Shown here in pieces: positions 9,115-20,283 of a stretch of DNA of 45,897 nt; within the stretch, counting starts at the first letter, position 1, and every line of letters starts with the position of its first letter. Location: NCBI GenBank assembly GCA_946532115.1, contig CAMNBC010000005.1:1-45897 (forward strand). The letters are read 5' to 3'. A program made the translations under genes and the position numbers. The stretch is from an uncultured Treponema sp. Its GTDB lineage: Bacteria; Spirochaetota; Spirochaetia; Treponematales; Treponemataceae. Below the pieces are notes generated by a model. That model saw only the letters and a program-made list of their open reading frames with translations. It was not told the origin of the DNA and made no database searches.

Positions 9115-9467
9115 CGGTGTTCTGTAAGTTTTACAGTGTACTGCTTGCCGTTGTAAGTGAAACTGATTTCCGTTTCAGTCTTGACTGAAAGATTTTCAGT
9201 TTCTGCAAGAGCGGAAGCGATTTTTTCAATGAGCGCTTTCTTGTTTTCATTGACTTTTCTTTCACGCTTTACAGAACGCTTTTCAGCAGGATTGCGGTCA
9301 GCCTTTGTGATTTTCCGCACAAGTGCTTTCTGTTCCTTTGTCAGAGCGCCGTTTTCAGTGTTTCCATGGTCGATTTCATAGTCCCACTGTAAGATTTCAA
9401 GCGCTTCATCACGCGTGCAATGATTTGCTTTCATCTGCTTTTCAATTTCTTTTTCAGTGAATGTCAT
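9093..9467 (-). CDS. Paralogue of the 6226-6579 protein
   Basis: 124 aa, MTFTEKEIEKQMKANHCTRD: the CTRDEALEIL segment matches CTREEAIALI of the paralogue. A long basic middle (RNPAEKRSVKRERKVNENKK) and a C-terminal strand (YNGKQYTVKLTEHREKK) follow. ATG 9467 follows GGCAGGTGATACC. Promoter TTGACA 9516-9521, 17 bp, TAGTAT 9493-9498. With the next gene it forms a duplicated block. Confidence 0.7.
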   Translation of the reverse strand: MTFTEKEIEKQMKANHCTRDEALEILQWDYEIDHGNTENGALTKEQKALVRKITKADRNPAEKRSVKRERKVNENKKALIEKIASALAETENLSVKTETEISFTYNGKQYTVKLTEHREKKAEK

Positions 9468-9551
9468 CGGTATCACCTGCCTTTCTATAATAATACTACC
9501 ACAGAGCAGGGGCTTTGTCAACCCCTGTTCTGTGAAAGTTTTGTGAAAGAC

Positions 9552-9899
9552 TTAAATCTTTGTGAAGTATGCAACCCCTTTCACCATTTCCCGGGAAACT
9601 CTGATTTCCTTGCGCATCTTTGTAACAATTGCGGAAACTTTCTGCGGATTTGCATCAGCAAGCGCAGGAACAAGCGCCTTGATTTCGGAAATTCTGTAAG
9701 ACTGACCGTCTTTCATTGCATCGTAGATTTCATCGGCAAGTGTTGCATTTGCAATCTGTGCCTTTGTCGGCTTGTTAGAACGGTTTGCGTTTTTCTTTGC
9801 CGTGAGTTCGATTTCATGCTGAATGAAAGCAATTTCATCAGCGTCTGTAAGATGTGTCAGAATCTGGGAGAACATTTCAATCTTTGTCATTTTTTCCAT
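9552..9899 (-). CDS. Small winged-helix protein (family member 4)
   Basis: 115 aa, nearly the same C-terminal winged helix as 6673-7017 (ADANPQKVSAIVTKMRKEIR, ending AYFTKI), while the N-terminal helices differ. Codons differ at many synonymous positions, so the pair is old but protein-constrained. AAGGTTAAGGTGATT precedes ATG 9899. Promoter TTGACA 9952-9957, 17 bp, TAGTAT 9929-9934. Stop TAA. Confidence 0.75.
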   Translation of the reverse strand: MEKMTKIEMFSQILTHLTDADEIAFIQHEIELTAKKNANRSNKPTKAQIANATLADEIYDAMKDGQSYRISEIKALVPALADANPQKVSAIVTKMRKEIRVSREMVKGVAYFTKI

Positions 9900-9957
9900 A
9901 GTGTAATCACCTTAACCTTTCTATAATAATACTACCATGGTTTTTAAGATTTGTCAA

Positions 9958-10050
9958 CTATAACTTTTCAAAGAGCGCTGTTCGGTGGGATGTCTTCCCT
10001 TACCTTACACACTTATTATAATAAATACCCTGTACAAAAAAATGTACAGG
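9958..10050 (-). ncRNA. Non-coding leader unit with CCTGTACA inverted repeat
   Basis: TATAAT (minus, about 10,015-10,020) and leader GTGTAAGGTAAGGG without a gene. Just upstream, CCTGTACA-aaaaaa-TGTACAGG is a perfect inverted repeat. It is the counterpart of the 7076-7150 unit. Confidence 0.3.
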
Positions 10051-10123
10051 TAATAATTTTTGCTAATTAATTTTTTCACAAGCGGTTTCGGGATTTCACA
10101 AAATTTTCACAAAAATCTTTAAA

Positions 10124-10186
10124 TTTAGTCTTGACTAACTGGGGTGGGGTGTGGTATAATTTTTCGGCCCGTTAGCGGCAACTAAC
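10124..10186 (+). promoter_or_regulatory. Rightward promoter flanked by two operators
   Basis: The operator TTAGTCTTGACTAACT (10,125-10,140) contains the -35 TTGACT (10,131-10,136). An 18-bp spacer leads to TATAAT (10,155-10,160). A second operator GTTAGCGGCAACTAAC (10,171-10,186) lies just past the start site. A repressor bound to both would block the promoter. Confidence 0.75.
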
Positions 10187-10188
10187 TT

Positions 10189-10204
10189 TGTTTCATGTGA
10201 AACA
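10189..10204. other. parS-like 16-bp palindrome
   Basis: TGTTTCATGTGAAACA differs by one central base from the parS consensus TGTTNCACGTGAAACA of bacterial ParB proteins. No parAB is in this window. Function untested. Confidence 0.45.
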
Positions 10205-10218
10205 ATTTCAGGATTTGG

Positions 10219-10325
10219 AGTTAGTCAAGACTAACCGCGCAAAAAGCGGAAAAACTTGTGCATGTGATAACTTTCACAAATTTCGGACCGTTAGTGGAGA
10301 CTAACTCGTTTGTGAATTAAAAAGG
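10219..10325. promoter_or_regulatory. Further operators before the 10326 gene
   Basis: AGTTAGTCAAGACTAAC (10,219-10,235), TGTGATAACTTTCACAA (about 10,263-10,279) and GTTAGTGGAGACTAAC (10,290-10,305). No coding sequence. Confidence 0.55.
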
Positions 10326-10625
10326 CTAGCTCAGTGCCAGCCTTTTAATGAAGCCCACATGCGGAACACCTCGATGAAGTTCTTTCGGAATCAGACCCAC
10401 GAGACCGTCAAGGCGGTGATGCACCTCGAACCCTTTATCAATGAGTTCTTTACCGAAACGCTTTTCAGCCTTCCGTCTGTCCCTTGCCCTGTTGCCAGTA
10501 GATCGGAACATCTGGAGGTGAAGTTGTTTCATTGTTTCACCAGTTGCACGGTCAATTTCAAGCGATGTATCGAACACCATTTCACCGACAATTTCCGCAA
10601 GCGCTTTTCTAGAAATCAGCGTCAT
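10326..10625 (-). CDS. Small basic early protein
   Basis: 99 aa, MTLISRKALAEIVGEMVFDT. Rich in Arg/Lys (NRARDRRKAEKRFGKELIDK) with a likely C-terminal strand-turn. The RKALAEIVGEMV start resembles the helical start of plasmid or phage regulators. AGAAAGGGGATGAT precedes the ATG. Promoter TTGACA 10,672-10,677, 17 bp, TATAAT 10,649-10,654. The TAG stop lies inside a terminator hairpin (AAGGCTGGC / GCTAGCCTT). Unknown function. Confidence 0.65.
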   Translation of the reverse strand: MTLISRKALAEIVGEMVFDTSLEIDRATGETMKQLHLQMFRSTGNRARDRRKAEKRFGKELIDKGFEVHHRLDGLVGLIPKELHRGVPHVGFIKRLALS

Positions 10626-10679
10626 TTTATCATCCCCTTTCTACATTAATTATAAGCCTGTTGGATCGTTTTGTCAACA

Positions 10680-10846
10680 ACGATTTTTAGGATTTTAAGT
10701 TAGTCTTGACTAACTCAACAATTTGTGTATTAAACTTGTGAATGTGAAAACTTTCACAAACGTTGGTCGTTAGCGGTAACTAACTTGCGGCCAGCCGTTA
10801 AAGCCGAACGTTTAAGCCAAAAGCGCAAATTTCTTTAAAATAAGTG
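10680..10846. promoter_or_regulatory. Operator cluster upstream of the exonuclease
   Basis: AGTTAGTCTTGACTAACT (10,698-10,715, perfect), TGTGAAAACTTTCACAA near 10,744 and GTTAGCGGTAACTAAC (10,769-10,784). Two operator families alternate, as upstream of 17,378. Confidence 0.65.
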
Positions 10847-10904
10847 TTGACATGCTTTTGGATTGGTGCTATTATTAGTATGTAAGTTAAAGGAGAGATA
10901 AATT

Positions 10905-11588
10905 ATGAAGACACGCAATAACATCATGGTAATCGACACTGAAACAGTAGGAACATTCGGACAGCCGTTAGTGCATGACCTGGGGTACGTTATCATCGAC
11001 AAGGACTTCAACGTACTGAAGAAGGACAGATTCCTCACAAAGGAACTGCACGGTATCGGGCACTGGATTCTGAAGACGTCGGATTTCTACAAGGAATACG
11101 ATAAGGATTACAAGCACGCAAGGGAAACCGAAAAGGTGCTGAAGTGGGCGGACATTTCTAAAGCAGTCGCTGATGCTATCAAGGAATACAAAGTAAGTAC
11201 AATCAGCGCATACAATCTGCAGTTTGACTACAAGGCAATTCACTACACAGACGAACTGTTCAACGGAAAGCACCTGTCAAAGGTACTTGACCACAAGACA
11301 AAGAACCTGCTCTGCATCTACAATCTTGCTTGCGAAACAGTACTGAATACAGATGAGTACAGAAACTTCTGTTCTGAAAATGGCTACATCAGCGAAAGCG
11401 GAAATTTCCGCACAGGTGCTGAATTTGCTTACAGATACATTGTTAAAGATACTGAATACATTGAAAAGCACACAGCGCTTGCTGATGCTGAAGATGAAAC
11501 GGTGATTCTGAAGCACATTGTAAACACGGTCAAGGGTAAGCCGAACTATGGCCTGTATTACAACTGCTGGAAGAAGGCTCAGGGATGA
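10905..11588 (+). CDS. DEDDh-type 3'-5' exonuclease
   Basis: 227 aa. RNase T / DnaQ-like fold: motif I IDTET (D11, E13), motif II YNLQFD (D108), motif III H189-x4-D194 (HTALAD). It would hydrolyse single-stranded DNA or RNA from the 3' end with two metal ions. Paralogue at 15,718-16,401. Promoter TTGACA 10,847-10,852, 17 bp, TATTAT 10,870-10,875; AAAGGAGAGATAAATT precedes the ATG. It is the only clear rightward gene in the early array. It stops at TGA (11,586-11,588) inside its terminator hairpin, so here TGA is a stop. Trp is written TGG. Confidence 0.85.
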   Translation: MKTRNNIMVIDTETVGTFGQPLVHDLGYVIIDKDFNVLKKDRFLTKELHGIGHWILKTSDFYKEYDKDYKHARETEKVLKWADISKAVADAIKEYKVSTISAYNLQFDYKAIHYTDELFNGKHLSKVLDHKTKNLLCIYNLACETVLNTDEYRNFCSENGYISESGNFRTGAEFAYRYIVKDTEYIEKHTALADAEDETVILKHIVNTVKGKPNYGLYYNCWKKAQG

Positions 11589-11600
11589 GCCTTTTTTAAA
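11576..11600 (+). terminator. Terminator overlapping the exonuclease stop
   Basis: AAGGCTC-agggat-GAGCCTTTTTT; the TGA stop is in the loop edge. The next in-frame stop lies past the T run. Confidence 0.9.
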
Positions 11601-11606
11601 CTTTTT

Positions 11607-11733
11607 GTTTAGTCCTACTAAACGCGATTTTTGGGAAATAAATTTTCACAAAATTTTCACAAAAAATTGCTTGACAAATTTTCTGAATTATGCTTGTTGA
11701 CAAATACTCGCCGCTGCGACCCACAGCGGCGAG
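11607..11733. promoter_or_regulatory. Operator and G+C-rich hairpin
   Basis: GTTTAGTCCTACTAAAC (11,607-11,623) is a palindrome identical in form to 7203-7219. Two TTGACA boxes (near 11,671 and 11,695) lack good -10 boxes. Hairpin CTCGCCGCTG/CAGCGGCGAG spans 11,707-11,733. Confidence 0.5.
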
Positions 11734-11762
11734 CCCAGAAAGTCAAGGGGTAAAATAAAAAA

Positions 11763-11811
11763 ACCGCCGGGACAAGGAGGAGGGATCCCAAGCGGTTCAA
11801 GCGGTTTTTTA
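11763..11811. terminator. Bidirectional terminator with SD / anti-SD loop
   Basis: AACCGC / GCGGTT outer stem with T runs on both strands. The inner stem GGGA/TCCC shows a loop AAGGAGGAGG on the plus strand, CCTCCTCCTT on the minus strand. Confidence 0.65.
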
Positions 11812-11812
11812 A

Positions 11813-11878
11813 GGTGGGGGTGCGCGGAGTTGCACCGCGTTTTCACGTCCTGCGTGAAACTCTCAGCTTTCCATCCCC
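11813..11878 (-). other. tRNA-like fold
   Basis: On the minus strand GGGGATG can pair with CACCCCC. TTTCACG/CGTGAAA forms an anticodon-like arm. CGCGG-TGCAACT-CCGCG has the size of a T-arm and differs by one base from the usual TTCAACT loop; ACC follows. The element is only 66 bases and its D-arm is poor, so it is not a working tRNA by eye. The loop does not read UCA. Confidence 0.35.
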
Positions 11879-11907
11879 ATAGGGAGAGGGGCTTGCGCCC
11901 CTCGGCG

Positions 11908-12243
11908 TTAGTCCTTGATTCCGAAGGTAGCCTTGGTCTTACCCTTGCCCTCGGTCACCTTGACGAAGCGACCACTGCGGTTCAGAATCGCACTCGCTTT
12001 CTGATTCGACAGACCGAACGCAACCTCGACCTGTGCGCAGGTGACAGGAGCGCCCTGCTCTTCGATGTAGCCAACAATCTTGTCAGCCAGTTCAGCGTTT
12101 GCGACCTGTGTCTTGGTCGGACCAGTGCGCTTGCAGGACTTGCGCTTATCCAGCAGTTCAATCTGATGACCGCAGAACCCCACGATTTCAGCGTCATTTG
12201 CGCAAGCGTCCATAATTCTCTGATACATTTCTCTGTTTGTCAT
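11908..12243 (-). CDS. Small winged-helix protein (family member 5)
   Basis: 111 aa, MTNREMYQRIMDACANDAEI. It shares the KRTGPTKTQVANAELADKI linker with members 2 and 4. A winged helix follows (TCAQVEVAFGLSNQKASAIL) with a basic wing ending FGIKD. AAGGTAAAAGGTGATT precedes the ATG. Promoter TTGACA 12,304-12,309, 17 bp, TAAAAT 12,281-12,286. Hairpin GAGGGGC-gcaa-GCCCCTC follows the TAA stop. Confidence 0.75.
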   Translation of the reverse strand: MTNREMYQRIMDACANDAEIVGFCGHQIELLDKRKSCKRTGPTKTQVANAELADKIVGYIEEQGAPVTCAQVEVAFGLSNQKASAILNRSGRFVKVTEGKGKTKATFGIKD

Positions 12244-12309
12244 AATTTAATCACCTTTTACCTTTCCTTTTTACATTTACATTTTAGCATTTCTGCTATA
12301 ACTTGTCAA

Positions 12310-12425
12310 GGGGTTTTTTTATTTTTTTTCGAGATTTCTTTTAACCTTCGCTCATGGAGTGCGCGCCCTCGTAAGTTCCTCGGCTATCTCTCCCCTTGAC
12401 AATTATAATTATACTCATTTGCTAT
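12310..12425 (-). ncRNA. Leftward leader-like RNA candidate
   Basis: Promoter TTGACT, 16 bp, TATAAT (minus, about 12,410-12,440). Leader TCAAGGGGAGAGATA as at 8680-8778, but no ATG frame follows. It would read into the promoter of the 11,908 gene. Nothing else seen here. Confidence 0.3.
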
Positions 12426-12482
12426 TGGAAGTCAAGGGGTTTTAGGAAAAATTTTTAAAAAATTTTTTTTTGCAAAATTTGC

Positions 12483-12546
12483 TTGACAAAATGTGGCTGA
12501 GGTGGTATAATGAAAAAATCGCGTCGTCCGGGCTGTGGACGACGCG
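12483..12546 (+). promoter_or_regulatory. Rightward promoter with 5' G+C-rich hairpin
   Basis: TTGACA 12,483-12,488, 17 bp, TATAAT 12,506-12,511, then CGCGTCGTCC/GGACGACGCG (12,520-12,546) and CCAAATAAAAAAAA. It faces the end of the leftward gene at 12,564. Confidence 0.75.
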
Positions 12547-12563
12547 CCAAATAAAAAAAAGGG

Positions 12564-12719
12564 TTACCGCCACCCTTGGGGCAGTAACTCCGCATCTACG
12601 AGGTTTCTGCGGTCAACCTCCTGAACCATCCACGGCATCTCGTCGAACTGAACCAGCAGGCGCTGACCGTTGTCACGAATCACTGTACCGAATCCGAAGT
12701 CTACATTCCACACTCTCAT
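12564..12719 (-). CDS. 51-aa tudor/SH3-like protein
   Basis: MRVWNVDFGFGTVIRDNGQR, LLVQFDEMPW, then QEVDRRNLVDAEL. The FGxGxVI..G..LLVQFD pattern resembles the small tudor-like barrel at the C-terminus of PcrA/UvrD helicases, so it may contact a nucleic-acid enzyme. This is inference from pattern only. GAGAGGTAAAG precedes the ATG. Promoter TTGACA 12,772-12,777, 17 bp, TACAAT 12,749-12,754, lies within the coding end of the gene upstream. The stop TAA is inside the terminator GGGT/ACCC plus T8. Confidence 0.65.
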   Translation of the reverse strand: MRVWNVDFGFGTVIRDNGQRLLVQFDEMPWMVQEVDRRNLVDAELLPQGWR

Positions 12720-12738
12720 TTTCTTTACCTCTCTTTTT

Positions 12739-12993
12739 TTACAATTTTATTGTAATACATTCTGTCCCTGTTGTCAAGTCCTTTTTTGTCGGGATTACAT
12801 AATCATCATCATCTTCGTTCATTTCTTTTGCAAGATTGGTCGCCACGTTTGCGAACTCTTCAATGAAGATTTTTGCCATTGTGTTAGGGGTTACTTCTGT
12901 CCTGTATTCATAGAAATAGAATAAGAGAGTTTCAAGAAAATCCTGTCTTGCATACGTGCGCGCGTATTCGCGGAGTTTGTCTTCTGCTGTCAT
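12739..12993 (-). CDS. 84-aa helical acidic early protein
   Basis: MTAEDKLREYARTYARQDFL, then helices and an acidic run (EMNEDDDDYVIP). The last 14 codons cross the next gene's promoter and the TAA lies in its leader. AAAGAGGTAAATT precedes the ATG. Promoter TTGACA 13,044-13,049, 16 bp, TATAAT 13,022-13,027. Function unknown. Confidence 0.65.
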   Translation of the reverse strand: MTAEDKLREYARTYARQDFLETLLFYFYEYRTEVTPNTMAKIFIEEFANVATNLAKEMNEDDDDYVIPTKKDLTTGTECITIKL

Positions 12994-13057
12994 AATTTAC
13001 CTCTTTTCTTTTTACATTTTAATTATAGCATACTCTTGAAGAGTGTCAAGTGTTTTT

Positions 13058-13237
13058 TTAAGAAACTTTCCACTCTTCAATTGCGTACCGCTCGACAGTG
13101 TTGCCCCACCAAGCCTCGAATGTTTCTTGGCGTTCAGCGACGTATTTTTCAGCGTCGGCTTTGTTGCCGAACACTGCGACGTTTTCAGTTCCGCCGTATT
13201 CCTCTTCAACGATGCAAGTTACGATGTAGATTTCCAT
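13058..13237 (-). CDS. 59-aa early protein
   Basis: MEIYIVTCIVEEEYGGTENV, AVFGNKADAEKYVAERQETF, then a Trp-rich end (EAWWGNTVERYAIEEWKVS). The strand-helix-strand pattern with FGNKADAEKYV is common in small phage proteins. GAGAGGTAAATAAA precedes the ATG. Promoter TTGACA 13,286-13,291, 17 bp, TACTAT 13,263-13,268. TAA stop. Function unknown. Confidence 0.65.
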   Translation of the reverse strand: MEIYIVTCIVEEEYGGTENVAVFGNKADAEKYVAERQETFEAWWGNTVERYAIEEWKVS

Positions 13238-13313
13238 TTTATTTACCTCTCTTTACACTATTATAGTAACATGTTCCTCTTGGATTGTCAACACTTTTTT
13301 TAAAATTTTTTTT

Positions 13314-13351
13314 AAGAGTGGGAAACTACTCTGTGAGCATTTCCCACTCTT
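13314..13351 (-). other. Perfect 12-bp stem across a stop codon
   Basis: AAGAGTGGGAAA (13,314-13,325) / TTTCCCACTCTT (13,340-13,351), spanning the end of the 13,326 gene. No T run follows on either strand, so it is not a standard terminator; it may protect the mRNA end. Confidence 0.5.
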
Positions 13352-13499
13352 CCTGCGTGTTGCAGGAATAGGAGATCCAGCCTTCCTCTGGATCGAAGAC
13401 GTCCGCATACTTGAAGCCGCCGTCTTCATACCAGATCGCCCGATCGACCTTGACCGCAAACACTGTGCAGTATTCAGCGATGAGATTCATGTGTTCCAT
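13326..13499 (-). CDS. 57-aa acidic Trp-rich early protein
   Basis: MEHMNLIAEYCTVFAVKVDR, AIWYEDGGFKYADVFDPEEG, then WISYSCNTQEEWEMLTE. Two strand regions and an acidic helix. GGGAGGTAACATCT precedes the ATG. Promoter TTGACA 13,551-13,556, 16 bp, TATAAT 13,529-13,534. The -35 lies inside the end of the upstream gene. Stop TAG. Unknown. Confidence 0.65.
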   Translation of the reverse strand: MEHMNLIAEYCTVFAVKVDRAIWYEDGGFKYADVFDPEEGWISYSCNTQEEWEMLTE

Positions 13500-13541
13500 A
13501 GATGTTACCTCCCTTTCCTTACAATACCATTATAGCAGGTA

Positions 13542-13697
13542 TTAGTATTTTGTCAAGCCCCTGCAAGCATTTTTTGAAGATTTTTTCTTCTTATCTTCAA
13601 CAACCTTGTGTCCGAGTTTGCGCAGGTTGCGGTTGAGTTCCTCATTGCGCAGATTGTAGAATGTGACTGTTCCGTTTTCATTTCTCTTGGTTTTCAT
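13542..13697 (-). CDS. 51-aa basic early protein
   Basis: MKTKRNENGTVTFYNLRNEE, then a lysine-rich end (KVVEDKKKKSSKNACRG). AGAGGAGATAATACA precedes ATG 13,697; the longer frame upstream crosses the promoter and is rejected. Promoter TTGACA 13,744-13,749, 16 bp, TATACT 13,722-13,727. Its last codons contain the next gene's TTGACA. Unknown; the charge suggests nucleic-acid binding. Confidence 0.6.
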   Translation of the reverse strand: MKTKRNENGTVTFYNLRNEELNRNLRKLGHKVVEDKKKKSSKNACRGLTKY

Positions 13698-13729
13698 TGT
13701 ATTATCTCCTCTTACAATTATAGTATAAC

Positions 13730-13759
13730 ACAAAAAAAGAGTTTGTCAACTCTTTTTTT
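13730..13759 (-). terminator. Terminator whose loop is a -35 box
   Basis: Minus strand AAAAAAAGAGTT-gaca-AACTCTTTTTTT: a symmetric hairpin ending the 13,758 gene, with the TTGACA of the next promoter at its tip. Confidence 0.7.
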
Positions 13760-13994
13760 AAGCCATGAAGAGATTTTCTTCTGGTTCTTCAATTTCCCAT
13801 TCAAAGCCGTAGATTTCTTCCCACTGATTGAGAATTTCGCAGAACTTTGTTCGTGCGTATTCCTGCGCGCCCTCATAGTCATCTTCTTCAAAGCGTGCTT
13901 CATCATAGCCACCATCAGCAGAAATTGCAACACAGCACAGAGCGTCCATTAGAGCCGTAGCGAGTTCATTAGTCATCTTTACTTTTCTTTTCAT
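13758..13994 (-). CDS. 78-aa acidic early protein
   Basis: MKRKVKMTNELATALMDALC, then an acidic helical part (DEARFEEDDYEGAQEYARTK) and EEIYGFEWEIEEPEENLFMA. GAGAGGTAAGGAAA precedes the ATG. Promoter TTGACA 14,042-14,047, 16 bp, TACAAT 14,020-14,025. Highly acidic, as seen in DNA-mimic or host-takeover proteins; that role is speculation. TAA stop. Confidence 0.65.
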   Translation of the reverse strand: MKRKVKMTNELATALMDALCCVAISADGGYDEARFEEDDYEGAQEYARTKFCEILNQWEEIYGFEWEIEEPEENLFMA

Positions 13995-14060
13995 TTTCCT
14001 TACCTCTCTTTACAATACTATTGTATCATGTTTAGAATGAATGTCAAGCATTTTTTTAAA

Positions 14061-14110
14061 AGATCTTGCGCTTGGCGCTCAACCCGATCGGATTAAGCGC
14101 CTGGGCGCAT
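14061..14110 (-). terminator. Strong hairpin after the 14,117 gene
   Basis: Minus strand GGCGCTTAATCCGATCGGGTTGAGCGCC-type stem (given here as GGCGCT/AGCGCC) with CCGATCGG in the loop. Only a short TTTT follows. The same CCGATCGG loop occurs near 5484. Confidence 0.5.
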
Positions 14111-14116
14111 ACTCTA

Positions 14117-14236
14117 TTATTCAATGATGAAGTTAATCAGCGAGAGAATCGCTATTACCCACGCGCCGACAGTGGGATTAATGAGCATGATACCTGCGCC
14201 GAGTGCGAATCCTGCAAGTGTCAAAATCTTTTCCAT
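14117..14236 (-). CDS. 39-aa membrane protein
   Basis: MEKILTLAGFALGAGIMLIN PTVGAWVIAILSLINFIIE: two short hydrophobic segments joined at Pro-Thr, a holin-like or small inner-membrane hairpin. GAGAGGTAAAGAAAA precedes the ATG. Promoter TTGACA 14,286-14,291 in a palindrome, 17 bp, TATTAT 14,263-14,268. TAA then TAG. Confidence 0.6.
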   Translation of the reverse strand: MEKILTLAGFALGAGIMLINPTVGAWVIAILSLINFIIE

Positions 14237-14299
14237 TTTTCTTTACCTCTCTTTACACTATTATAATAGCATAGAAGAAAAGTGCTGTCAAGCACTTTT

Positions 14300-14458
14300 T
14301 TACTTTTCTTCTTCAATTTCCATGATGTTTTCATCTATTACGTCAATGTCATCGACTTCAATTCCTTCCCAGAATCCCTCGGTGGTCAGACGTCCTTTTT
14401 CCAGAAACCATGCATCATCTTCGTACTCTACAATCAGTGTTACAACAGCCTTTTTCAT
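14300..14458 (-). CDS. 52-aa acidic early protein
   Basis: MKKAVVTLIVEYEDDAWFLE, KGRLTTEGFWEGIEVDDIDV, IDENIMEIEEEK. Strands with a very acidic C-terminus. GAGAGGTAAGGAAA precedes the ATG. Promoter TTGACA 14,511-14,516, 17 bp, TATTAT 14,488-14,493. Its last codons (AGAAGAAAAGT) can pair with the spacer of the next promoter, enclosing the -35. Unknown. Confidence 0.65.
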   Translation of the reverse strand: MKKAVVTLIVEYEDDAWFLEKGRLTTEGFWEGIEVDDIDVIDENIMEIEEEK

Positions 14459-14534
14459 TTTCCTTACCTCTCTTTTCTTACAATACTATAATAGCAGAAG
14501 GGGTCGAACTTGTCAACCCCTTTTTTGAAGATTT

Positions 14535-14708
14535 TTACTCTTCATTAATGAATCCGCAGACAGGGCAGAGTTCTTTTTCAAGATCCTCCGCAGTCCAGTC
14601 GCATTCGTAGATAGGTTCACCACATTCGGGGCATTCGTAGAATCTTTCATCCCAGTCAACGTAACCACCATAGATTTTTTCAACGATACGAGCATTAATT
14701 TCCCACAT
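14535..14708 (-). CDS. 57-aa zinc-ribbon early protein
   Basis: MWEINARIVEKIYGGYVDWD, then CPECG at 26-30, C36 and CPVCG at 48-52: a zinc ribbon of the rubredoxin-like type. GGGAGGTAATACCT precedes the ATG. Promoter TTGACA 14,758-14,763, 17 bp, TATTGT 14,735-14,740. Stop TAA. Likely nucleic-acid or RNA-polymerase contact, unproven. Confidence 0.7.
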   Translation of the reverse strand: MWEINARIVEKIYGGYVDWDERFYECPECGEPIYECDWTAEDLEKELCPVCGFINEE

Positions 14709-14808
14709 AGGTATTACCTCCCTCTTACACTAATACAATACCACTTTTGGAGCGTGCTGTCAAGGGTTTTGGGATAAATTTTTTTTATAAAAAATTGCGA
14801 AAAAATGC

Positions 14809-14905
14809 TTGACAAAATGTCGGGGGTATGGTACAATGGAAAATTCGTCGCGCCTGGCCCGTGGGCGCGACGCCAATTGTATCATGGAACGAAACCAAAA
14901 GTCAA
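14809..14905. promoter_or_regulatory. Convergent promoters around a G+C-rich hairpin
   Basis: Rightward: TTGACA 14,809-14,814, 17 bp, TACAAT 14,832-14,837. Leftward: TTGACT near 14,900, 18 bp, TACAAT near 14,880. Between them CGTCGCGCC/GGCGCGACG (14,846-14,872), so the hairpin would be at the 5' end of both transcripts. Confidence 0.6.
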
Positions 14906-14965
14906 GTAGAAATTGCAAAAATAATTCTAAAATTTTTTCTCATTCCAAAATGGTAAACGGAAAAA

Positions 14966-15379
14966 TCAACCCCAAAGTTCGGCGGGGTCGATTGCAATAC
15001 CTTTCCAAGTCTTGCGGATTTCAGCGTTGTCATCAATCAGAATTGCGTTAGCAGAACCTTTCAGATTTTTGTTGTTCCCATACTTGCGATAAATGCGCTT
15101 TGTGATAGTGGGGAAGTACAGGTCAAGCCAACGATTTTTTACTTCTTCAACTCTTTTGCAGAAATCTTCATCCGCGCCTTTCGGGGTCATACTCAATACA
15201 ACGATTTCAAAATCAGAAGCAGGGTAGCGGAATCTGAGGTCATTTTCAGTAATGATTCGAAAATCACCCCAAAATACCGATTCATCACCCGAGAGCAATC
15301 TTTCAAGCCAGTTTTCGCGGTGATACAGGTCGAAGATTGTTCCATCCATGTCAAGGTATACTTTCTGTCTTTTTTTCAT
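14966..15379 (-). CDS. HAD-family phosphatase (5'-nucleotidase-like)
   Basis: 137 aa. HAD motif I YLDMDGTIFDLY (D10 nucleophile, D12), motif II VLSMTP (S63), a lysine-rich stretch near 94-105 for motif III and ILIDDNAE (D116, D117) as motif IV. It resembles small phage deoxyribonucleotidase-like or polynucleotide-phosphatase HADs, possibly acting on nucleotides. GAGGGAGGAAATAGAAA precedes the ATG. Promoter TTGACA 15,432-15,437, 16 bp, TATAAT 15,410-15,415. Stop is TGA (14,966-14,968) within a terminator (ACCCC/GGGGT then TTTTT). Confidence 0.8.
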   Translation of the reverse strand: MKKRQKVYLDMDGTIFDLYHRENWLERLLSGDESVFWGDFRIITENDLRFRYPASDFEIVVLSMTPKGADEDFCKRVEEVKNRWLDLYFPTITKRIYRKYGNNKNLKGSANAILIDDNAEIRKTWKGIAIDPAELWG

Positions 15380-15460
15380 TTTCTATTTCCTCCCTCTTGG
15401 TACAATACTATTATAGCAGTTCTAAAAGGAATGTCAATAGATTTTTGAAACTTTTTTAAT

Positions 15461-15658
15461 TTATTTATACAGATACCGATACTGATTTAAAATGTAATTA
15501 TCTTCAAAATTAATTTCATTTTTTAATTCTCGATTTTCATTCTCAAGTTCTTTAATTCTTAATTTAAGATTTCTAATTTCATCTAATGCATCTTCATAAT
15601 TTTGTCTATACAATTCACAATAATCAATTTTCGGTTCAGTTTTTATCCATTTTTCCAT
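15461..15658 (-). CDS. 65-aa coiled-coil early protein
   Basis: MEKWIKTEPKIDYCELYRQN, then a clear coiled coil with leucines and asparagines at heptad positions (IRNLKLRIKELENENRELKN). More A+T-rich than its neighbours. GAGAGGTAAGAATT precedes the ATG. Promoter TTTACA 15,702-15,707, 17 bp, TATAAT 15,679-15,684. TAA stop. Probably a dimerising adaptor. Confidence 0.65.
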   Translation of the reverse strand: MEKWIKTEPKIDYCELYRQNYEDALDEIRNLKLRIKELENENRELKNEINFEDNYILNQYRYLYK

Positions 15659-15717
15659 AATTCTTACCTCTCATAATTATTATAACATTTATTTTATTGT
15701 TTGTAAAGAAAAACTGC

Positions 15718-16401
15718 TCAATTTGCATAGAGCAGTTTTCTCATCGGCTTGTGTTGAGCGAAGCATTTTGCGGTGATTGCCACTTCAATCAGTACATCAT
15801 CCAGGCCCTGATGTTCTTCGTTGAACTCATTCTGTCCTGTAATGTAGCGGTACAGTGTCTGCGCGTCTGATTTCAACATACCTTTTGCGGTGAGGTATCC
15901 GTTTTTTTCGCAGAACTTGCGGTAAGACTTTTGTTTTACGATTGTATCGCGTGCCATTTTCAGTGAATCATAGACCGGAATGCCATACGGCAGGAAGTAC
16001 CGAGTTTTTGATTTTGTCACATAGCGGATTGTCTTTTTCAGTGTATTGTCATCGAATCTGCTGTTGTGGGCAATGATTGCCTTGACATTGTACTCTTTAC
16101 AGAGTTCAGCGACAATCTTTTTTGCGGTGTAGATACCGACCATCTGCCGAGTGCCCGCCTTGAGCGCTTTCTCATACTTTGGTAACTTGTCGGCGTAGTA
16201 TGCGCTCTTCATCAGTTCACGTTCGCCGCAGTAAATATCCGCGATTACCAGCGAACGAGTCGCATATATATGGCCGTGCTTGTCATGGACCGCCACCCCC
16301 AGGTCATAGGTCAGGGCGTCATTCATGTCATTCTTGCGAGTGTTGGCAGTTTCGGTGTCAATAGTCATGTAGTAGGTAATGCGCTTGTCAATCTTTGTCA
16401 T
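15718..16401 (-). CDS. DEDDh-type 3'-5' exonuclease (second copy)
   Basis: 227 aa, the same length as the 10,905 paralogue. Motif I TIDTET (D15, E17), motif II AHNSRFD (D117), motif III H197-x4-D202 (HQGLDD). Shared blocks such as YRKFCEKNGYL and the LYRYI/AYRYI segment show common origin. GGGAGAGATAAACACT precedes the ATG. Promoter TTGACA 16,451-16,456, 16 bp, TATAAT 16,429-16,434. It stops at TGA (15,718-15,720), which sits in terminator AAAACTGCT/GAGCAGTTTTT. Confidence 0.85.
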   Translation of the reverse strand: MTKIDKRITYYMTIDTETANTRKNDMNDALTYDLGVAVHDKHGHIYATRSLVIADIYCGERELMKSAYYADKLPKYEKALKAGTRQMVGIYTAKKIVAELCKEYNVKAIIAHNSRFDDNTLKKTIRYVTKSKTRYFLPYGIPVYDSLKMARDTIVKQKSYRKFCEKNGYLTAKGMLKSDAQTLYRYITGQNEFNEEHQGLDDVLIEVAITAKCFAQHKPMRKLLYAN

Positions 16402-16543
16402 AGTGTTTATCTCTCCCTTACAGATACTATTATACTACTTCTGGCAGTGGTGTCAAGCATTTTGACGAAATTTTTTTATGAAAATTTTTTCAGTGGCGCC
16501 TTTCGGGATTTGCGAAATTTTTTAATTTTTTTGCGATTTGCTC

Positions 16544-16690
16544 TTGACTTTTTTGCCTATGTGTGATACTTTTGAAAATCGCGCCGCCGGCCAGTTGCAC
16601 GCGCGTCGGCGGCGCGGCCGCGGCCATATAGGATGGCACGCTAGGACCCGTTGTTATTTCTGGCAGGGTATTGACCTCTTTTTCTCTCTA
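16544..16690. promoter_or_regulatory. G+C-rich hairpin and control region
   Basis: A weak rightward promoter (TTGACT 16,544-16,549, TACTTT near 16,567) precedes CGCGCCGCCG (16,580-16,589) / CGGCGGCGCG (16,607-16,616). Then GGCACGCTAGGACCCGTTGT, a repeat of the GGCACGCT unit at 8962. A leftward TATACTATAAT with -35 near 16,720 gives a leader without an obvious gene. Confidence 0.45.
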
Positions 16691-16748
16691 CAATTATAGT
16701 ATAACACAGATTTCGTATTTGTCAACACTTTTTTAAAAAATTATCGCT

Positions 16749-16877
16749 TTACAGTGCGATAATTTCGACTCTCGCTTTTGGGAAGCGTCTTGCGAGTTGA
16801 TCCCGCAGGTCGACTGCTTCGCCGTAGCGCTTGAATCTGTTCATGTATTTACCGTTCATTCTTACTTCGTATTTCAT
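16749..16877 (-). CDS. 42-aa basic early protein
   Basis: MKYEVRMNGKYMNRFKRYGE AVDLRDQLARRFPKARVEIIAL: strand, helix, strand. This is a type of small phage protein of unknown role. GAGAGGTAACACC precedes the ATG. Promoter TTGACA 16,925-16,930, 17 bp, TATTAT 16,902-16,907. The TAA stop is in the loop of terminator ATTATCGC/GCGATAATTTTTT. Confidence 0.65.
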   Translation of the reverse strand: MKYEVRMNGKYMNRFKRYGEAVDLRDQLARRFPKARVEIIAL

Positions 16878-16914
16878 GGTGTTACCTCTCTTTCCATAAT
16901 TATAATAGCACACA

Positions 16915-16940
16915 TTAAAAAGGCTGTCAAGCCTTTTTAC
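16915..16940 (-). promoter_or_regulatory. Terminator-promoter overlap (-35 in hairpin loop)
   Basis: Minus AAAAAGGCT-tgac-AGCCTTTTTA. The hairpin with its T run can end the 16,927 gene, its loop is the TTGACA of the 16,749 gene, and the TGA stop codon lies within that same box. Confidence 0.65.
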
Positions 16941-17052
16941 GAAGAATTTTTACGATTTTTTCTTCAATTGTCATCAGTGCCCAAGTGAGCAGAGCCAGCG
17001 GAGCGGCGATGATGATAATTCCGAAGTTGTGAGCGATTAACCAAGCGTACAT
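16927..17052 (-). CDS. 41-aa membrane protein
   Basis: MYAWLIAHNFGIIIIAAPLA LLTWALM then a basic tail (TIEEKIVKILRKKA): one membrane helix with cytoplasmic basic end. GAGAGGTAAAAAAAAT precedes the ATG. Promoter TTGACA 17,103-17,108, 17 bp, TAATAT 17,080-17,085. The stop TGA (16,927-16,929) is part of the next TTGACA. Confidence 0.6.
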   Translation of the reverse strand: MYAWLIAHNFGIIIIAAPLALLTWALMTIEEKIVKILRKKA

Positions 17053-17122
17053 TTTTTTTACCTCTCTTTATCTACTATTATATTATCATAGTTTTTAATT
17101 GTTGTCAACTATGAATTTTATA

Positions 17123-17345
17123 AGTTAGCCTTGACTAACTGCGCGCCAGCCCTGGTTAGTGTAAACTAACCCAGCAGCGCAAAAACTTGTGAAAATTATA
17201 ACTTTCACAAACTTTTGCTTTTGGATTAGTTGGATTTCCAACTATTTTCGGGAAAAAGTTAGTCTTGACAAACTCGCAATCTTGTGAACAAAAATTATCT
17301 TGTGAATTATTTCACAATTTTTTCGGATCGTTAGCGGTAACTAAC
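17123..17345. promoter_or_regulatory. Dense operator cluster, three families
   Basis: AGTTAGCCTTGACTAACT (17,123-17,140), GTTAGTGTAAACTAAC (17,155-17,170), AGTTGGATTTCCAACT (17,228-17,243, perfect), AGTTAGTCTTGACAAACT (17,257-17,274), TTGTGAATTATTTCACAA (17,300-17,317) and GTTAGCGGTAACTAAC (17,330-17,345). No gene in this stretch. Confidence 0.7.
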
Positions 17346-17377
17346 TTATAGCGTAAAAAAATGGCTTTAAGCCATTT

Positions 17378-17668
17378 TTAGATATCGTATGATGCGTATC
17401 CGATAATTACCGAGAACCCGTCGAACTGATATTCTTCATACAGGCTTTCGTCATCGTGATGAATTGCTTCTTTATCAAGCCATTTAACGAAGGCTTCCAT
17501 CATACGGTAGTTGACAATATCACGAATAATTTCATCGTTATTTTTGTCAAGTCCTTCATAGTCGTTAATCGTTACATCATAGCAGTTATCGCGCTTATAG
17601 AAATACAGGTCGTCGCTTTCTTCAAGTGTTCCGAGGAATTCATTCAGTGTCATTTCAGCGTTTGTCAT
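17378..17668 (-). CDS. 96-aa acidic early protein
   Basis: MTNAEMTLNEFLGTLEESDD, then YFYKRDNCYDVTINDYEGLD and a helical part (MMEAFVKWLDKEAIHHDDES); it ends GFSVIIGYASYDI. Highly acidic; strand-helix mix. GGGAGGTCATACAAA precedes the ATG. Promoter TTGTAA 17,719-17,724, 17 bp, TATATT 17,696-17,701. TAA in terminator AAATGGC/GCCATTTTTTT. Unknown. Confidence 0.65.
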   Translation of the reverse strand: MTNAEMTLNEFLGTLEESDDLYFYKRDNCYDVTINDYEGLDKNNDEIIRDIVNYRMMEAFVKWLDKEAIHHDDESLYEEYQFDGFSVIIGYASYDI

Positions 17669-17869
17669 TTTGTATGACCTCCCTTAACTGTCTATAATAT
17701 ACCACAGGTATAGGCTTATTACAATAGGTTAAGCGTAATTTATTGATTTTTTTTACGATTTTTTATAGAAAGTTATGAAACATTTTCAGTTTCTTACATT
17801 TTTTGAAAAAGTTTTACATTTTACTTCTGGGATTTTTATACTTTTTTGTGCTTTTTTCGCAATTTATCC

Positions 17870-17925
17870 TTGACTTTGTGAGCCGCATCCCTTATAATTT
17901 TTTCGGATCGTTAGCGATAACTAAC
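17870..17925 (+). promoter_or_regulatory. Rightward promoter with downstream operator
   Basis: TTGACT 17,870-17,875, 17 bp, TATAAT 17,893-17,898, then TTTTTTCGGATC and GTTAGCGATAACTAAC (17,910-17,925). It faces the 3' end of the 17,950 gene. Nothing coding follows on this strand. Confidence 0.75.
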
Positions 17926-17949
17926 TCTTTTTACAAAAAAAACTCTTTT

Positions 17950-18120
17950 TTAGAGTTTTCCTGTTTTGAGAAATCTTTCAGCCTGTTCCGGTGTTGCCCA
18001 GAAGATCTGCGGCTGGACTCTTTCGTTGAAGCCTTTTTCTTTTTCAGCCTGTTCTCTTGTTGTATAGATTACCTGTAATTCGTTTCTCCAGTATGTTGCG
18101 TATCCTTCAAGTCTTGTCAT
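17950..18120 (-). CDS. 56-aa early protein
   Basis: MTRLEGYATYWRNELQVIYT TREQAEKEKGFNERVQPQIF WATPEQAERFLKTGKL. Two strand-helix halves; the TREQAEK and TPEQAERF segments look like an internal duplication. GAGGAGAAAAAGAAA precedes the ATG. Promoter TTGCAA 18,175-18,180, 17 bp, TATATT 18,152-18,157. TAA in the loop of terminator AAAACTC/GAGTTTTTTTT. Unknown. Confidence 0.65.
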   Translation of the reverse strand: MTRLEGYATYWRNELQVIYTTREQAEKEKGFNERVQPQIFWATPEQAERFLKTGKL

Positions 18121-18284
18121 TTTCTTTTTCTCCTCTTCTCTTTACACTTATAATATACCATAGCCTATACTGTATTGCAACCCATGCGGCGCAATTTCTC
18201 TAAAATTAGCGTATTTTTTTAAGAAATTTATGAAAACTTTTCAGGATTTTTCAGAAATTTGTAAGCATTTTCATAAAATTGTTC

Positions 18285-18339
18285 TTGACTTCTGGTGTGC
18301 TATGCCTTATAATTTTTCGGATCGTTAGCGATAACTAAC
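18285..18339 (+). promoter_or_regulatory. Rightward promoter with downstream operator
   Basis: TTGACT 18,285-18,290, 17 bp, TATAAT 18,308-18,313, then TTTTCGGATC and GTTAGCGATAACTAAC (18,324-18,339). Same layout as at 17,870. Confidence 0.75.
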
Positions 18340-18364
18340 TGTGAACATTAAAAAAAGAAGATTT

Positions 18365-18553
18365 TTAATCTTCTTCTTCTACCTCATTCGGCAGAGTCCA
18401 GCCGCACAGGTCGATTGCATTATCCTGCCAGTCAGAGCGTTCTCTAACATCATTAACCTTGACGGCCAGTGAGAGAATAGAATCTTCGAGGACAACTTCA
18501 GCGTTCTGATTTTCAATTGCCTGCAGGCGAGTGATGAGTTCTTTAACTGTCAT
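18365..18553 (-). CDS. 62-aa early protein
   Basis: MTVKELITRLQAIENQNAEV VLEDSILSLAVKVNDVRERS, then DWQDNAIDLCGWTLPNEVEEED. The TVKELITRLQAI..NAEVVLE start is a common type of small phage protein of unknown role. AAAGGAGAAAATCAAA precedes the ATG. Promoter TTGTAT 18,609-18,614, 16 bp, TATAAT 18,587-18,592. The TAA overlaps terminator GAAGATT/AATCTTCTTTTTTT. Confidence 0.7.
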   Translation of the reverse strand: MTVKELITRLQAIENQNAEVVLEDSILSLAVKVNDVRERSDWQDNAIDLCGWTLPNEVEEED

Positions 18554-18719
18554 TTTGATTTTCTCCTTTATCTCTTTACAATTATTATTATACGCGTATT
18601 ATTGTAAAATACAAGTAGTACAAACAAAAAAATACTTTTTCCGCACATTTTTTAGAGAAATTTATGAAACATTTTTCAGGATTTTCATAATTTTGCAAAA
18701 ACTTTCATCAAATTTACGC

Positions 18720-18774
18720 TTGACTTCTGGAGGTATCTTGTGGTAAAATTTTCGGGTCGTTAACGATAACTAAC
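18720..18774 (+). promoter_or_regulatory. Rightward promoter with downstream operator
   Basis: TTGACT 18,720-18,725, 18 bp, TAAAAT 18,744-18,749, TTTTCGGGTC and GTTAACGATAACTAAC (18,759-18,774). Confidence 0.65.
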
Positions 18775-18793
18775 TTACTGTATTAAAAAAAAC

Positions 18794-18940
18794 TCAGAGG
18801 TGAATCCTCAGAGTTTCTTTTGTTTCTTTCTTGTAGATGTACATTGTGTTGTTCTTGATGATTCTCAGATATTTGTCGCTTTCTTCGTAGTGGATAATTC
18901 CTGTAAGTCCGTATTTCTTTGCGAGTTCCTGTACTGTCAT
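18794..18940 (-). CDS. 48-aa early protein
   Basis: MTVQELAKKYGLTGIIHYEE SDKYLRIIKNNTMYIYKKET KETLRIHL. The first 20 residues look like a short helix-turn-helix; the rest is strands. GAGGGAGGAACAAAAA precedes ATG 18,940; the longer frame upstream crosses the promoter and is rejected. Promoter TTGACA 18,990-18,995, 16 bp, TATACT 18,968-18,973. It ends at TGA inside terminator ACTCTGAGG/CCTCTGAGTTTTTTT. Confidence 0.65.
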   Translation of the reverse strand: MTVQELAKKYGLTGIIHYEESDKYLRIIKNNTMYIYKKETKETLRIHL

Positions 18941-19058
18941 TTTTTGTTCCTCCCTCTTTACAATTATAGTATAGCACACTTTTGGAGTATGTCAATACTT
19001 TTGACAAAAAAAGTTTTAGGAATTGCAAAAAAATTTTTAAAAAATTGTAATTTTCTGC

Positions 19059-19114
19059 TTGACTTTGCGGGCTGGGTATGGTAGAATTTTTTCGGACCGT
19101 TAGTGGTGGCTAAC
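19059..19114 (+). promoter_or_regulatory. Rightward promoter with downstream operator
   Basis: TTGACT 19,059-19,064, 17 bp, TAGAAT 19,082-19,087, TTTTTTCGGACC and GTTAGTGGTGGCTAAC (19,099-19,114, imperfect). Confidence 0.65.
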
Positions 19115-19141
19115 TCACAATGTAAAAAAAACCTTGCTTTT

Positions 19142-19447
19142 TCAAGCGAGGTTGTATTTCATTGTCTGATGTTCTCTTGCGATGTTTATTACTTTCTGTA
19201 CCTCTTCTGTGATCTCTGTGAAGTATCTTCTTATCTGTCCGGGTCTTGCGATGAGTTTTGTTATCATCTTGTGTGTTCTTTCGTTTCTGATAATGATTAT
19301 TCCTGTTGTTGTTATTGTGTGAAGTTCTGCTCCGTTTCTGTGTCCTCTGTCAACTCTTACTGTTGTGATTTCTTTTCCTGTACCGATCTGTCTGATGATT
19401 TCTTCTCTTGCTTTTCTATCTTCTGTGTAGTGTCTGCTCTGTGTCAT
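19142..19447 (-). CDS. 101-aa basic early protein
   Basis: MTQSRHYTEDRKAREEIIRQ, strands (EITTVRVDRGHRNGAELHTI), TTGIIIIRNERTHKMITKLI ARPGQIRRYF, then a helix. The ..II..N..THKMITKLIARPGQI.RY.. block is a recurring type in Bacillota phages, I believe without known function. AAGGAGAGATAAGAAG precedes ATG 19,447. Promoter TTGACA 19,494-19,499, 16 bp, TATACT 19,472-19,477. Stop TGA is in terminator AACCTCGCTT/AAGCAAGGTTTTTTT. Confidence 0.7.
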   Translation of the reverse strand: MTQSRHYTEDRKAREEIIRQIGTGKEITTVRVDRGHRNGAELHTITTTGIIIIRNERTHKMITKLIARPGQIRRYFTEITEEVQKVINIAREHQTMKYNLA

Positions 19448-19545
19448 CTTCTTATCTCTCCTTACACTTATAGTATAGCACATTCTCACGCAGTGTCAAT
19501 ACTTTTAGGAAAAAAAGTTTTTTGTGTTTTTTGCAAAATTTGTTG

Positions 19546-19602
19546 TTGACAAACTGTGGCGGCTTGTTGTATAATTTTTTCGGATCGTTAGCGAAGACTA
19601 AC
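19546..19602 (+). promoter_or_regulatory. Rightward promoter with downstream operator
   Basis: TTGACA 19,546-19,551, 18 bp, TATAAT 19,570-19,575, TTTTTCGGATC and GTTAGCGAAGACTAAC (19,587-19,602). Confidence 0.7.
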
Positions 19603-19630
19603 TATTGTTGTAAAAAAAAACTTGACTGTT

Positions 19631-19783
19631 TTAGTCAAGTTCTGCTAATGTAGTTCTCAATTCTCTCAGAGTTTTGTTCAGGCTTCTTACTACATCTGCT
19701 CTGTATCCGATTTCTGCGCATTCTTCGTACATGATTGCGTTTTCTACTTCGGCGATTCTTTTAACTAATTCTTCTCTTGTCAT
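19631..19783 (-). CDS. 50-aa helical early protein
   Basis: MTREELVKRIAEVENAIMYE ECAEIGYRADVVRSLNKTLR ELRTTLAELD: a long amphipathic helical hairpin, likely dimeric. AAGAGGTAAAGAAA precedes the ATG. Promoter TTGACA 19,835-19,840, 16 bp, TATAAT 19,813-19,818. TAA in the loop of terminator ACTTGAC/GTCAAGTTTTTTTTT. Unknown. Confidence 0.65.
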   Translation of the reverse strand: MTREELVKRIAEVENAIMYEECAEIGYRADVVRSLNKTLRELRTTLAELD

Positions 19784-19884
19784 TTTCTTTACCTCTTCCT
19801 CTTTACACCTTTATTATAGCATGGATGCTGTACTTGTCAATAGGTTTTTAAAAATTTTTTTTTATTTTTTTTAGGAAAAAATGC

Positions 19885-19944
19885 TTGACAAACCAAGTCG
19901 AGTGTGTTAGAATTAAATAGGTCCAGGCGCCTTGCGCCTGGACC
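19885..19944 (+). promoter_or_regulatory. Rightward promoter with 5' G+C-rich hairpin
   Basis: TTGACA 19,885-19,890, 17 bp, TAGAAT 19,908-19,913, then GGTCCAGGCGC-ctt-GCGCCTGGACC (19,920-19,944), an 11-bp perfect stem. A degenerate GTTAAC half-operator follows near 19,951. Confidence 0.7.
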
Positions 19945-20000
19945 AGAGGATCGTTAACGAAATTTAAAACTAATACCAAAATAAAAAATGGCATCAATTC
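19920..20000 (-). ncRNA. Leftward short RNA ending in the same hairpin
   Basis: Promoter TTGACA 20,025-20,030, 17 bp, TAGAAT 20,002-20,007. No ORF. The transcript would reach the 19,920-19,944 hairpin followed by TATTTAATT, a plausible terminator, giving about 80 bases. Confidence 0.4.
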
Positions 20001-20067
20001 CATTCTACCACAGAAAAGAAATGGTGTCAATACTTCAAGTGCATTTATTTAATGTAAAACAGGTTGA

Positions 20068-20283
20068 TTATCTCCGCCCGAACAGGACTCTGACAGGATA
20101 CTCACCGAAGAAGTAGACTGTAACTTCATCTCCTTCATTCAAGTCATCAGCACAAATCTCATACTGTTCATTGTTTACTTCAATAACATACAAGTCGTTG
20201 TGTTCACTGTATCCTTCATAGACCTCTTCAACGACTGTGCCGTGCGCTATTGTAAGCAGTATAGTTAGCAGTATCTTTAACAT
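20068..20283 (-). CDS. 71-aa exported protein
   Basis: MLKILLTILLTIAHG is a short signal peptide or membrane anchor. The rest is a small strand-rich domain (DLYVIEVNNEQYEICADDLN EGDEVTVYFF) with an OB/SH3 look, ending VRVLFGRR. This layout is common among small Bacillota phage proteins. AAAGAGGTAAAGAG precedes the ATG. Promoter TTGACA 20,332-20,337, 17 bp, TATACT 20,309-20,314. It acts at or outside the membrane; role unknown. Confidence 0.7.
   Translation of the reverse strand: MLKILLTILLTIAHGTVVEEVYEGYSEHNDLYVIEVNNEQYEICADDLNEGDEVTVYFFGEYPVRVLFGRR

Follow-up and report, generated by a model that had tools for sequence, protein, structure and literature searches.

A phage contig binned with Treponema uses TGA as a stop in a small-gene array and as tryptophan in its virion genes, with a candidate tRNA(UCA)-gated late regulator

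Gene organization of the contig

The window analysed here is a whole contig (C5 in our numbering; CAMNBC010000005.1, 45,897 nucleotides (nt)) of GenBank assembly GCA_946532115.1, an uncultured Treponema bin that comprises 284 contigs and 2.45 Mb, is 72.7% complete, and need not represent the host of the phage described below. PHROG matches on the + strand from 22978 onwards, namely a putative regulator, terminase, portal, virion genes and tape measure, mark the window as part of a large siphophage. An array of small genes lies to the left of these genes, and the codon TGA carries a different meaning in each of the two blocks, ending genes in the array and being read as Trp in the virion block. 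The main blocks and genes are:

6226..20283, - strand (30 genes on -, one on +): small-gene array with its own sigma-70-like promoters and, for many genes, their own terminators; standard code
3519..4241, + strand: recoded gene left of the array, with two in-frame TGA
22917..22946, + strand: perfect host-type promoter TTGACA-18-TATAAT before the putative late regulator
22978..24030, + strand: putative late transcription factor (PHROG 5767 'sigma factor') with two in-frame TGA (23503, 23641); first late gene
24073..45896, + strand: virion block (terminase, portal, structural genes, tape measure) by PHROG matches; TGA read as Trp
39387..45896, + strand: tape-measure gene by PHROG match, with 16 in-frame TGA; runs off the contig end

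Sigma-70-like promoters are in excess in the array region (5900-21600), where 100 were counted against 29.3 in shuffles, as compared with 82 against 75.1 in the late block. This excess, together with general phage knowledge, suggests that the array is expressed early.

TGA stops in the small-gene array

The array set consists of 31 genes with ribosome-binding sites; 10326-10625 was added by eye, and the frames at 20507, 21627, 22680 and 8364 and all + strand frames except 10905 were left out as likely spurious or outside the array. Two starts were corrected to an ATG with a ribosome-binding site (18794-18940 and 19142-19447), replacing longer GTG frames. The genes end in TAA (22), TGA (6) or TAG (3), and all six TGA stops lie at or inside the terminator hairpin of their own gene:

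10905..11588, + strand: exonuclease-like gene (phrog_20187); TGA in the 3' arm of the terminator
14966..15379, - strand: 137-aa gene; TGA in the 3' arm of the terminator
15718..16401, - strand: exonuclease-like paralogue; TGA in its own terminator
16927..17052, - strand: 41-aa gene; TGA in the terminator loop and within TTGACA, the -35 box of the next promoter (16930-16925)
18794..18940, - strand: 48-aa gene; TGA in the 3' arm of the terminator
19142..19447, - strand: 101-aa gene; TGA in the terminator loop

An earlier note, made from the sequence alone, had claimed that all of these genes except 16927 end in TGA in or next to their own terminator with the next in-frame TAA or TAG past the T run, and that the TGA of 16927 lies in a -35 box. 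The stops, hairpins and coordinates are as it described. Counted from the first base of the TGA, the T run and the next in-frame TAA or TAG follow at +6 and +24 nt in 10905, +3 and +39 nt in 14966, +7 and +24 nt in 15718, +4 and +24 nt in 18794, and +13 and +42 nt in 19142. The next in-frame TAA of 16927 is just 12 nt downstream, at the very end of the T run, and the argument that readthrough would leave no stop is therefore weak for this gene.

The same note had counted 912-1040 as a further TGA stop on account of an ATGA overlap. The overlap is present, but nothing indicates that its TGA must be a stop: the gene sits outside the array in the left + strand block, where 3519-4241 reads TGA as Trp, readthrough would add merely a 9-residue tail before a TAA, and no homologue was found in the searched stretches of relatives. 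It was set aside as evidence for these reasons.

Palindromes like GTTAGCGATAACTAAC are repeated at 10137-19600, many of them, as seen by eye, directly after + strand promoters between array genes, and these sites face opposite to the - strand array genes. They are possible operators.

TGA as tryptophan in the virion block

A search with the terminase yielded 108 IMG/VR stretches, 80 of which were kept for comparison; G numbers below denote the records or contigs of relatives, and L numbers loci or stretches from them. The named phages with 30-48% identity to the terminase infect Bacillus, Geobacillus, Enterococcus, Lactococcus and others. At the late TGA codons of the window the relatives carry TGG (461) or TGA (132), in agreement with the earlier claim that late genes use TGA as Trp, and most of the remaining codons fall at four poorly conserved sites, two of which are upstream of likely starts. 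Trp is the residue opposite 286 of the 339 aligned TGA codons of the 80 relatives, and Gln that opposite 706 of the 1391 aligned TAG codons, implying that the family includes TGA=Trp, TAG=Gln and standard-code members. For the tape measure no relatives aligned over the gene in the compared loci, and the reading of its 16 TGA is based on the PHROG match together with the open frame.

The internal codons of the virion block and regulator (18 frames) comprise 54 TGG and 35 TGA, whereas those of the 31 array genes comprise 35 TGG and no TGA (Fisher P 1e-6, partly by construction, as array genes were defined with TGA as a stop). TGAs at 27617 (portal frame) and 36078 were excluded from these counts as upstream of likely starts, the PHROG matches beginning later; those at 34857 and 23503 were kept, although relatives do not conserve them. 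The 17 late frames with a visible end use TAA (14) or TAG (3) and never TGA, again partly by construction because these frames were read with TGA=Trp. Virion genes of the window thus carry in-frame TGA where Trp is conserved, and another gene set is in standard code, as expected of a dual-coded stop-recoded phage, and we consider the split of the code within this genome solid, as good as sequence can make it.

Array stops compared in relatives

Each array protein was searched against stretches of 16 relatives with TGA read as Trp, so that alignments could continue through it. Homologues of 10905 in G003 and G016 have TGA one codon past the aligned end. For 14966, TGA occupies the same position in G002, G004, G005, G016 and G017, and TAA follows one codon later in G003; for 15718, TAA occurs at +0 to +2 codons in G004, G016, G018 and G007. 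The homologue of 16927 in G005 has TGA within one codon and that of 19142 in G002 (64% identity) has it at the same position, while none was found for 18794. Conversely, window genes 20068, 9093 and 9552 end in TAA where relatives have TGA.

Places were counted at 35% identity or more with the alignment reaching to within 5 residues of the end, and the first stop within 8 codons was scored. Five relatives were classed as TGA=Trp, G002-G005 on the strength of late genes and G016 only through its recoded 3519-type gene; homologues of 3519-4241 carry one in-frame TGA in G005, three each in G002 and G016, and two in G004. The first stop at the 63 array places of these five relatives is TGA at 22, TAG at 18 and TAA at 19, with none at 4, and inside the same alignments there are 64 TGG and no in-frame TGA. 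G017, outside the count, is similar (4 TGA, 4 TAA, 3 TAG, 2 none). In three TAG=Gln relatives, 15 array places gave TAA 8, TGA 7 and TAG 0; in this small sample TAG=Gln phages seem to avoid their own recoded codon as an array stop, and TGA=Trp phages do not.

Because homologues terminate at the same aligned residue, whether by TAA, TAG or TGA, we conclude that the array TGAs are real stops, and readthrough into extended proteins was rejected on this ground. Close relatives likewise use TGA in both senses.

The putative late regulator

The regulator gene combines a host-type promoter with in-frame stops. A near-consensus promoter occurs at the same place in most relatives, scored there without the control that exists for the window. 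Of 65 relatives aligned at the TGA at 23641, 55 have a Trp codon there (42 TGG, 13 TGA); the TGA at 23503, as noted, is not conserved. Every recoded locus that holds the regulator gene has at least one recoded stop in it, and the loci without recoding (L015-L018, L064, L066, L069, L078 and L079) have none. In the lightly recoded L063 (G012), 15 late frames reach 110 codons or more, and their one credible in-frame TGA is in the regulator gene; another late frame there has two TGA at its extreme start, as in L065, which were taken as upstream of the start. In L065 the regulator gene holds 4 of the 5 aligned late-block TGA (binomial P 0.001). L065 and L063 alone stand out in this way, and we do not claim an enrichment of recoded stops in the regulator gene across all relatives.

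The product is a putative late transcription factor. Its AlphaFold2 model has a mean predicted local distance difference test (pLDDT) of 76.9, and the absence of a sigma fold among the structural comparison rows was not taken as evidence.

The window has nine sites of the form AAAAAT-N4-6-TATAAT, compared with 0.18 in shuffles, and they are a possible late promoter type; four of the nine lie in the left + strand block. The pattern scan placed the following:

157, 872, 2777, 4746 and 38705, + strand: AAAAAT-N4-6-TATAAT sites

A tRNA(UCA) cassette and its intron in relatives

Rfam tRNA searches on 18 records and ARAGORN runs on the stretches revealed large tRNA sets in relatives, and solitary tRNA(UCA) genes in G003 and G006, both behind an Hsp20-like gene (Pfam E 0.003, below the family cut-off). 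The Hsp20-like gene is also found in G002 and G004, there with an interrupted tRNA(UCA). Extending the search yielded 17 loci with the Hsp20-like gene at 86-100% identity (including G003, G004 and G006), and tRNA(UCA) lies behind the gene in all 17, being plain in 3, two-anticodon in 1 and interrupted in 13; with G002 added, the association is 18 of 18 and the interrupted form 14 of 18. G012 has a distant Hsp20-like gene (39%) with no tRNA(UCA) directly behind it, its tRNA(UCA) being elsewhere. The cassette promoters read TTGACT-17-TATAAT in G003 and G004, TTGACT-18-TATAAT in G006 and TTGACA-18-TATAAT in G002. A host-type promoter with at least 10 of 12 matches stands upstream of the cassette in 15 of the 16 loci scored, or 16 of 17 with G002 (12 of 12).

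In the interrupted genes the anticodon loop reads CTT/CAA around the insert:

L323, L321, L326-L337 and L340: intron with group I-type P7 in the tRNA(UCA) anticodon loop

The insert has what we take to be the core motifs of a group I intron. The P7 helix pairs in all 11 aligned copies, and one of its pairs covaries between C-G, G-C and G-U. The L321 and L323 inserts gave no Rfam Intron_gpI match at E 0.1. Among the accounts returned by a literature search, no description of introns in suppressor tRNAs was found.

The tRNA(UCA) genes of G003 and G012 have a different elaboration, the variable region being replaced by a second arm whose 7-nt loop carries CCA, as in tRNA-Trp:

L176 913-1007, L153 8971-9066 and L209-L231: tRNA(UCA) with a second, anticodon-like CCA arm

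ARAGORN labels these two-anticodon tRNAs tRNA-SeC, an identity that was set aside for the G003 and G012 copies, which match RF00005 (62.0 and 61.6 bits) and not RF01852. The two-arm pattern matched 23 IMG/VR stretches; in 257 billion bases of genome contigs it gave three matches without tRNA context, which by eye look like chance and were discarded. A second pattern with the extra arm unconstrained matched 105 stretches, and CCA stands at loop positions 3-5 in 27 of the 45 unique long regions from the best 80 of these 105, one of which is probably tRNA-Sec. With both patterns pooled (L209-L300), 86 matches contain 49 unique long variable regions among the matches listed. Thirty-one of these listed regions have an NTCCANN loop at the extra arm and 18 lack it; of the latter, 17 read as tRNA-Sec and one (L289) is Trp-like without CCA. 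The stems of the extra arm vary widely and mostly pair, a few being mismatched next to the loop. Among 21 other records with two-anticodon tRNAs, three hold a terminase relative, with 2, 3 and 1 in-frame TGA. The anticodon is important for recognition by tryptophanyl-tRNA synthetase, and the CCA arm may therefore serve charging. A literature search found no description of tRNAs with two anticodon arms.

An RF-1 family release factor was not found in 18 of the 19 relatives tested, and the 402-kb G010 encodes one at 22886-23212. tmRNA genes are present in relatives at L140 398-752, L144 9277-9626, L146 10746-11055 and L153 987-1411; the tags of those in G002, G004, G006 and G012 end in TAG, TAG, TAG and TAA, respectively.

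Discussion

An early/late code switch was reportedly proposed for stop-recoded gut phages by Borges in 2022, and the earlier note read the window in the same way. One half of that reading stands, as TGA ends genes of the host-promoter array and encodes Trp in the virion block; the other half, a split in time, remains our inference. We propose, with a probability of about 0.7, that the sequence describes a two-dialect genome in which a late regulator gated by tRNA(UCA) acts as a feed-forward switch. Host RNA polymerase would recognise the sigma-70-type promoters of the array genes and transcribe these genes immediately, at a time when host release factor 2 (RF2) still ends translation at TGA, which would allow the array to use TGA freely as a stop. 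A tRNA(UCA), made from a host-type promoter in a cassette without TGA of its own, would meanwhile accumulate, presumably charged with Trp, and read TGA as Trp. The regulator gene, having a host-type promoter but in-frame TGA, could be completed only once this tRNA is present. Its product would then activate the virion genes, rich in TGA and terminated by TAA or TAG, the whole forming a coherent feed-forward gate.

A more elaborate version would be a timer built of RNA, in which the tRNA reads TGA only after splicing of its anticodon loop, or through a UCA decoding arm with a separate CCA arm for tryptophanyl-tRNA synthetase, and then permits completion of the regulator. We regard this version as tentative and rather doubtful.

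Several observations weigh against the proposed switch. No tRNA and no Rfam match was found in the 45.9-kb window and no Hsp20-like gene in its bin, so that the switch parts are transferred from relatives and a cassette in this very phage is presumed. RF2 was seen in the bin only as fragments. The regulator protein has no Pfam or NCBIfam match, the 'sigma factor' label coming from PHROG alone, and no solved-structure match at E 0.001 in Foldseek; its best structural rows are the phage 21 Q antiterminator at Z 7.7-7.9, a range where chance arrangements occur. Nor is the gate fixed in the sub-group of L063, L064 and L065, since the in-frame TGA counts of these close kin differ (one, none and four). 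Taken alone, the contrast between array and late block in their use of TGA stops falls short of significance (P 0.08). Finally, the next in-frame stops after the array TGAs are near, with 3-13 codons between, as compared with a wide spread for other genes (Mann-Whitney P 0.02), and such backup stops could reflect tolerance of readthrough.

These backup stops also bear on an alternative without any temporal switch, in which tRNA(UCA) and RF2 compete at all times and the array tolerates constant leaky suppression, through short tails or through nonstop products cleared by the phage tmRNA. The tmRNA genes of G002, G004, G006 and G012 would suit such an arrangement, as would the host-type promoter of tRNA(UCA), from which the tRNA may be made early. 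However, TGA is the first stop at 22 of the 63 array places in TGA=Trp relatives, above what is expected if TGA were leaky and costly there, and the visible late ends lack TGA altogether (0 of 17, with the reservation on construction given above). We therefore judge constant leakage unlikely.

Far less probable is a host that itself has TGA=Trp, in which the array TGAs would not act as stops. The TGA-rich genes of the phage and the fragmentary state of RF2 in the bin could be taken to point that way, but homologues of array genes stop at the same residue through TAA or TAG, none of the 20 tRNAs found in the bin has a UCA anticodon, and the fragments themselves, by eye, are RF2-like. A chimeric contig joining a standard-code element to a recoded phage would account for the blocks differing in composition and strand; it was rejected as hardly credible, because in each of G002, G003, G004 and G005 one contig contains relatives of both blocks.

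The general idea of a switch is known. For stop-recoded gut phages in which virion genes are recoded and others follow the standard code, a temporal switch that guards late genes has been proposed, and proteomics supports late recoding of TAG (Peters 2022, PMC9523058). TAG=Gln was tested there, whereas the window has TGA=Trp with TGA also in use as an array stop, and here a candidate gated regulator and, from relatives, a tRNA cassette are named. The terminase of phAss-1 has 42% identity to that of the window; phAss-1, of the proposed Phassvirus group, is described as about 136 kb with suppressor tRNA genes and virion genes recoded as here, but uses TAG, while the window and its nearest relatives use TGA (PMC10607447). 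The Zeta crAss-like phage Lera resembles the window in TGA=Trp, with a tRNA-SUP-TCA and mostly structural genes recoded, a likeness of description, and the passages of its account consulted have nothing on TGA as an early stop (PMC12386605). RNA processing at a suppressor tRNA has been proposed in code switching for Theta ribozymes, as here; that proposal concerns a 3' ribozyme, whereas the relatives have an intron with a group I-type core inside the anticodon loop (PMC10879173). A synthetic feed-forward leak dampener makes expression of a regulator depend on a suppressor tRNA, as proposed here, but is engineered in Escherichia coli, the present case being a natural candidate (PMC7969014).

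What is new is the tRNA(UCA) cassette, the in-frame stops in the regulator, the intron, and the two-anticodon arms in relatives. Code switching in recoded phages is a standing hypothesis with little mechanism, and the relatives suggest specific components for one. These are a tRNA(UCA) cassette behind a host-type promoter, RNA processing of most copies of the tRNA, and one regulator gene with an in-frame stop through which all late genes could be gated. Each candidate part is open to deletion or swap in the laboratory. The two-anticodon tRNAs, if functional, would separate charging from decoding, one arm being used for the former and another for reading.

Other features

The array DNA gave no match in the phage collection. 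A FolD-like gene (THF dehydrogenase/cyclohydrolase, Pfam 8e-41) at 21871-22704 adjoins the late block. Among relatives, the phage contig G012 carries an OLE RNA (Rfam RF01071, 109 bits) at L153 5822-6158, and G004 has an odd tRNA-Trp(CCA)-like gene at L144 5984-6064, apparently, by eye, with no normal D arm.

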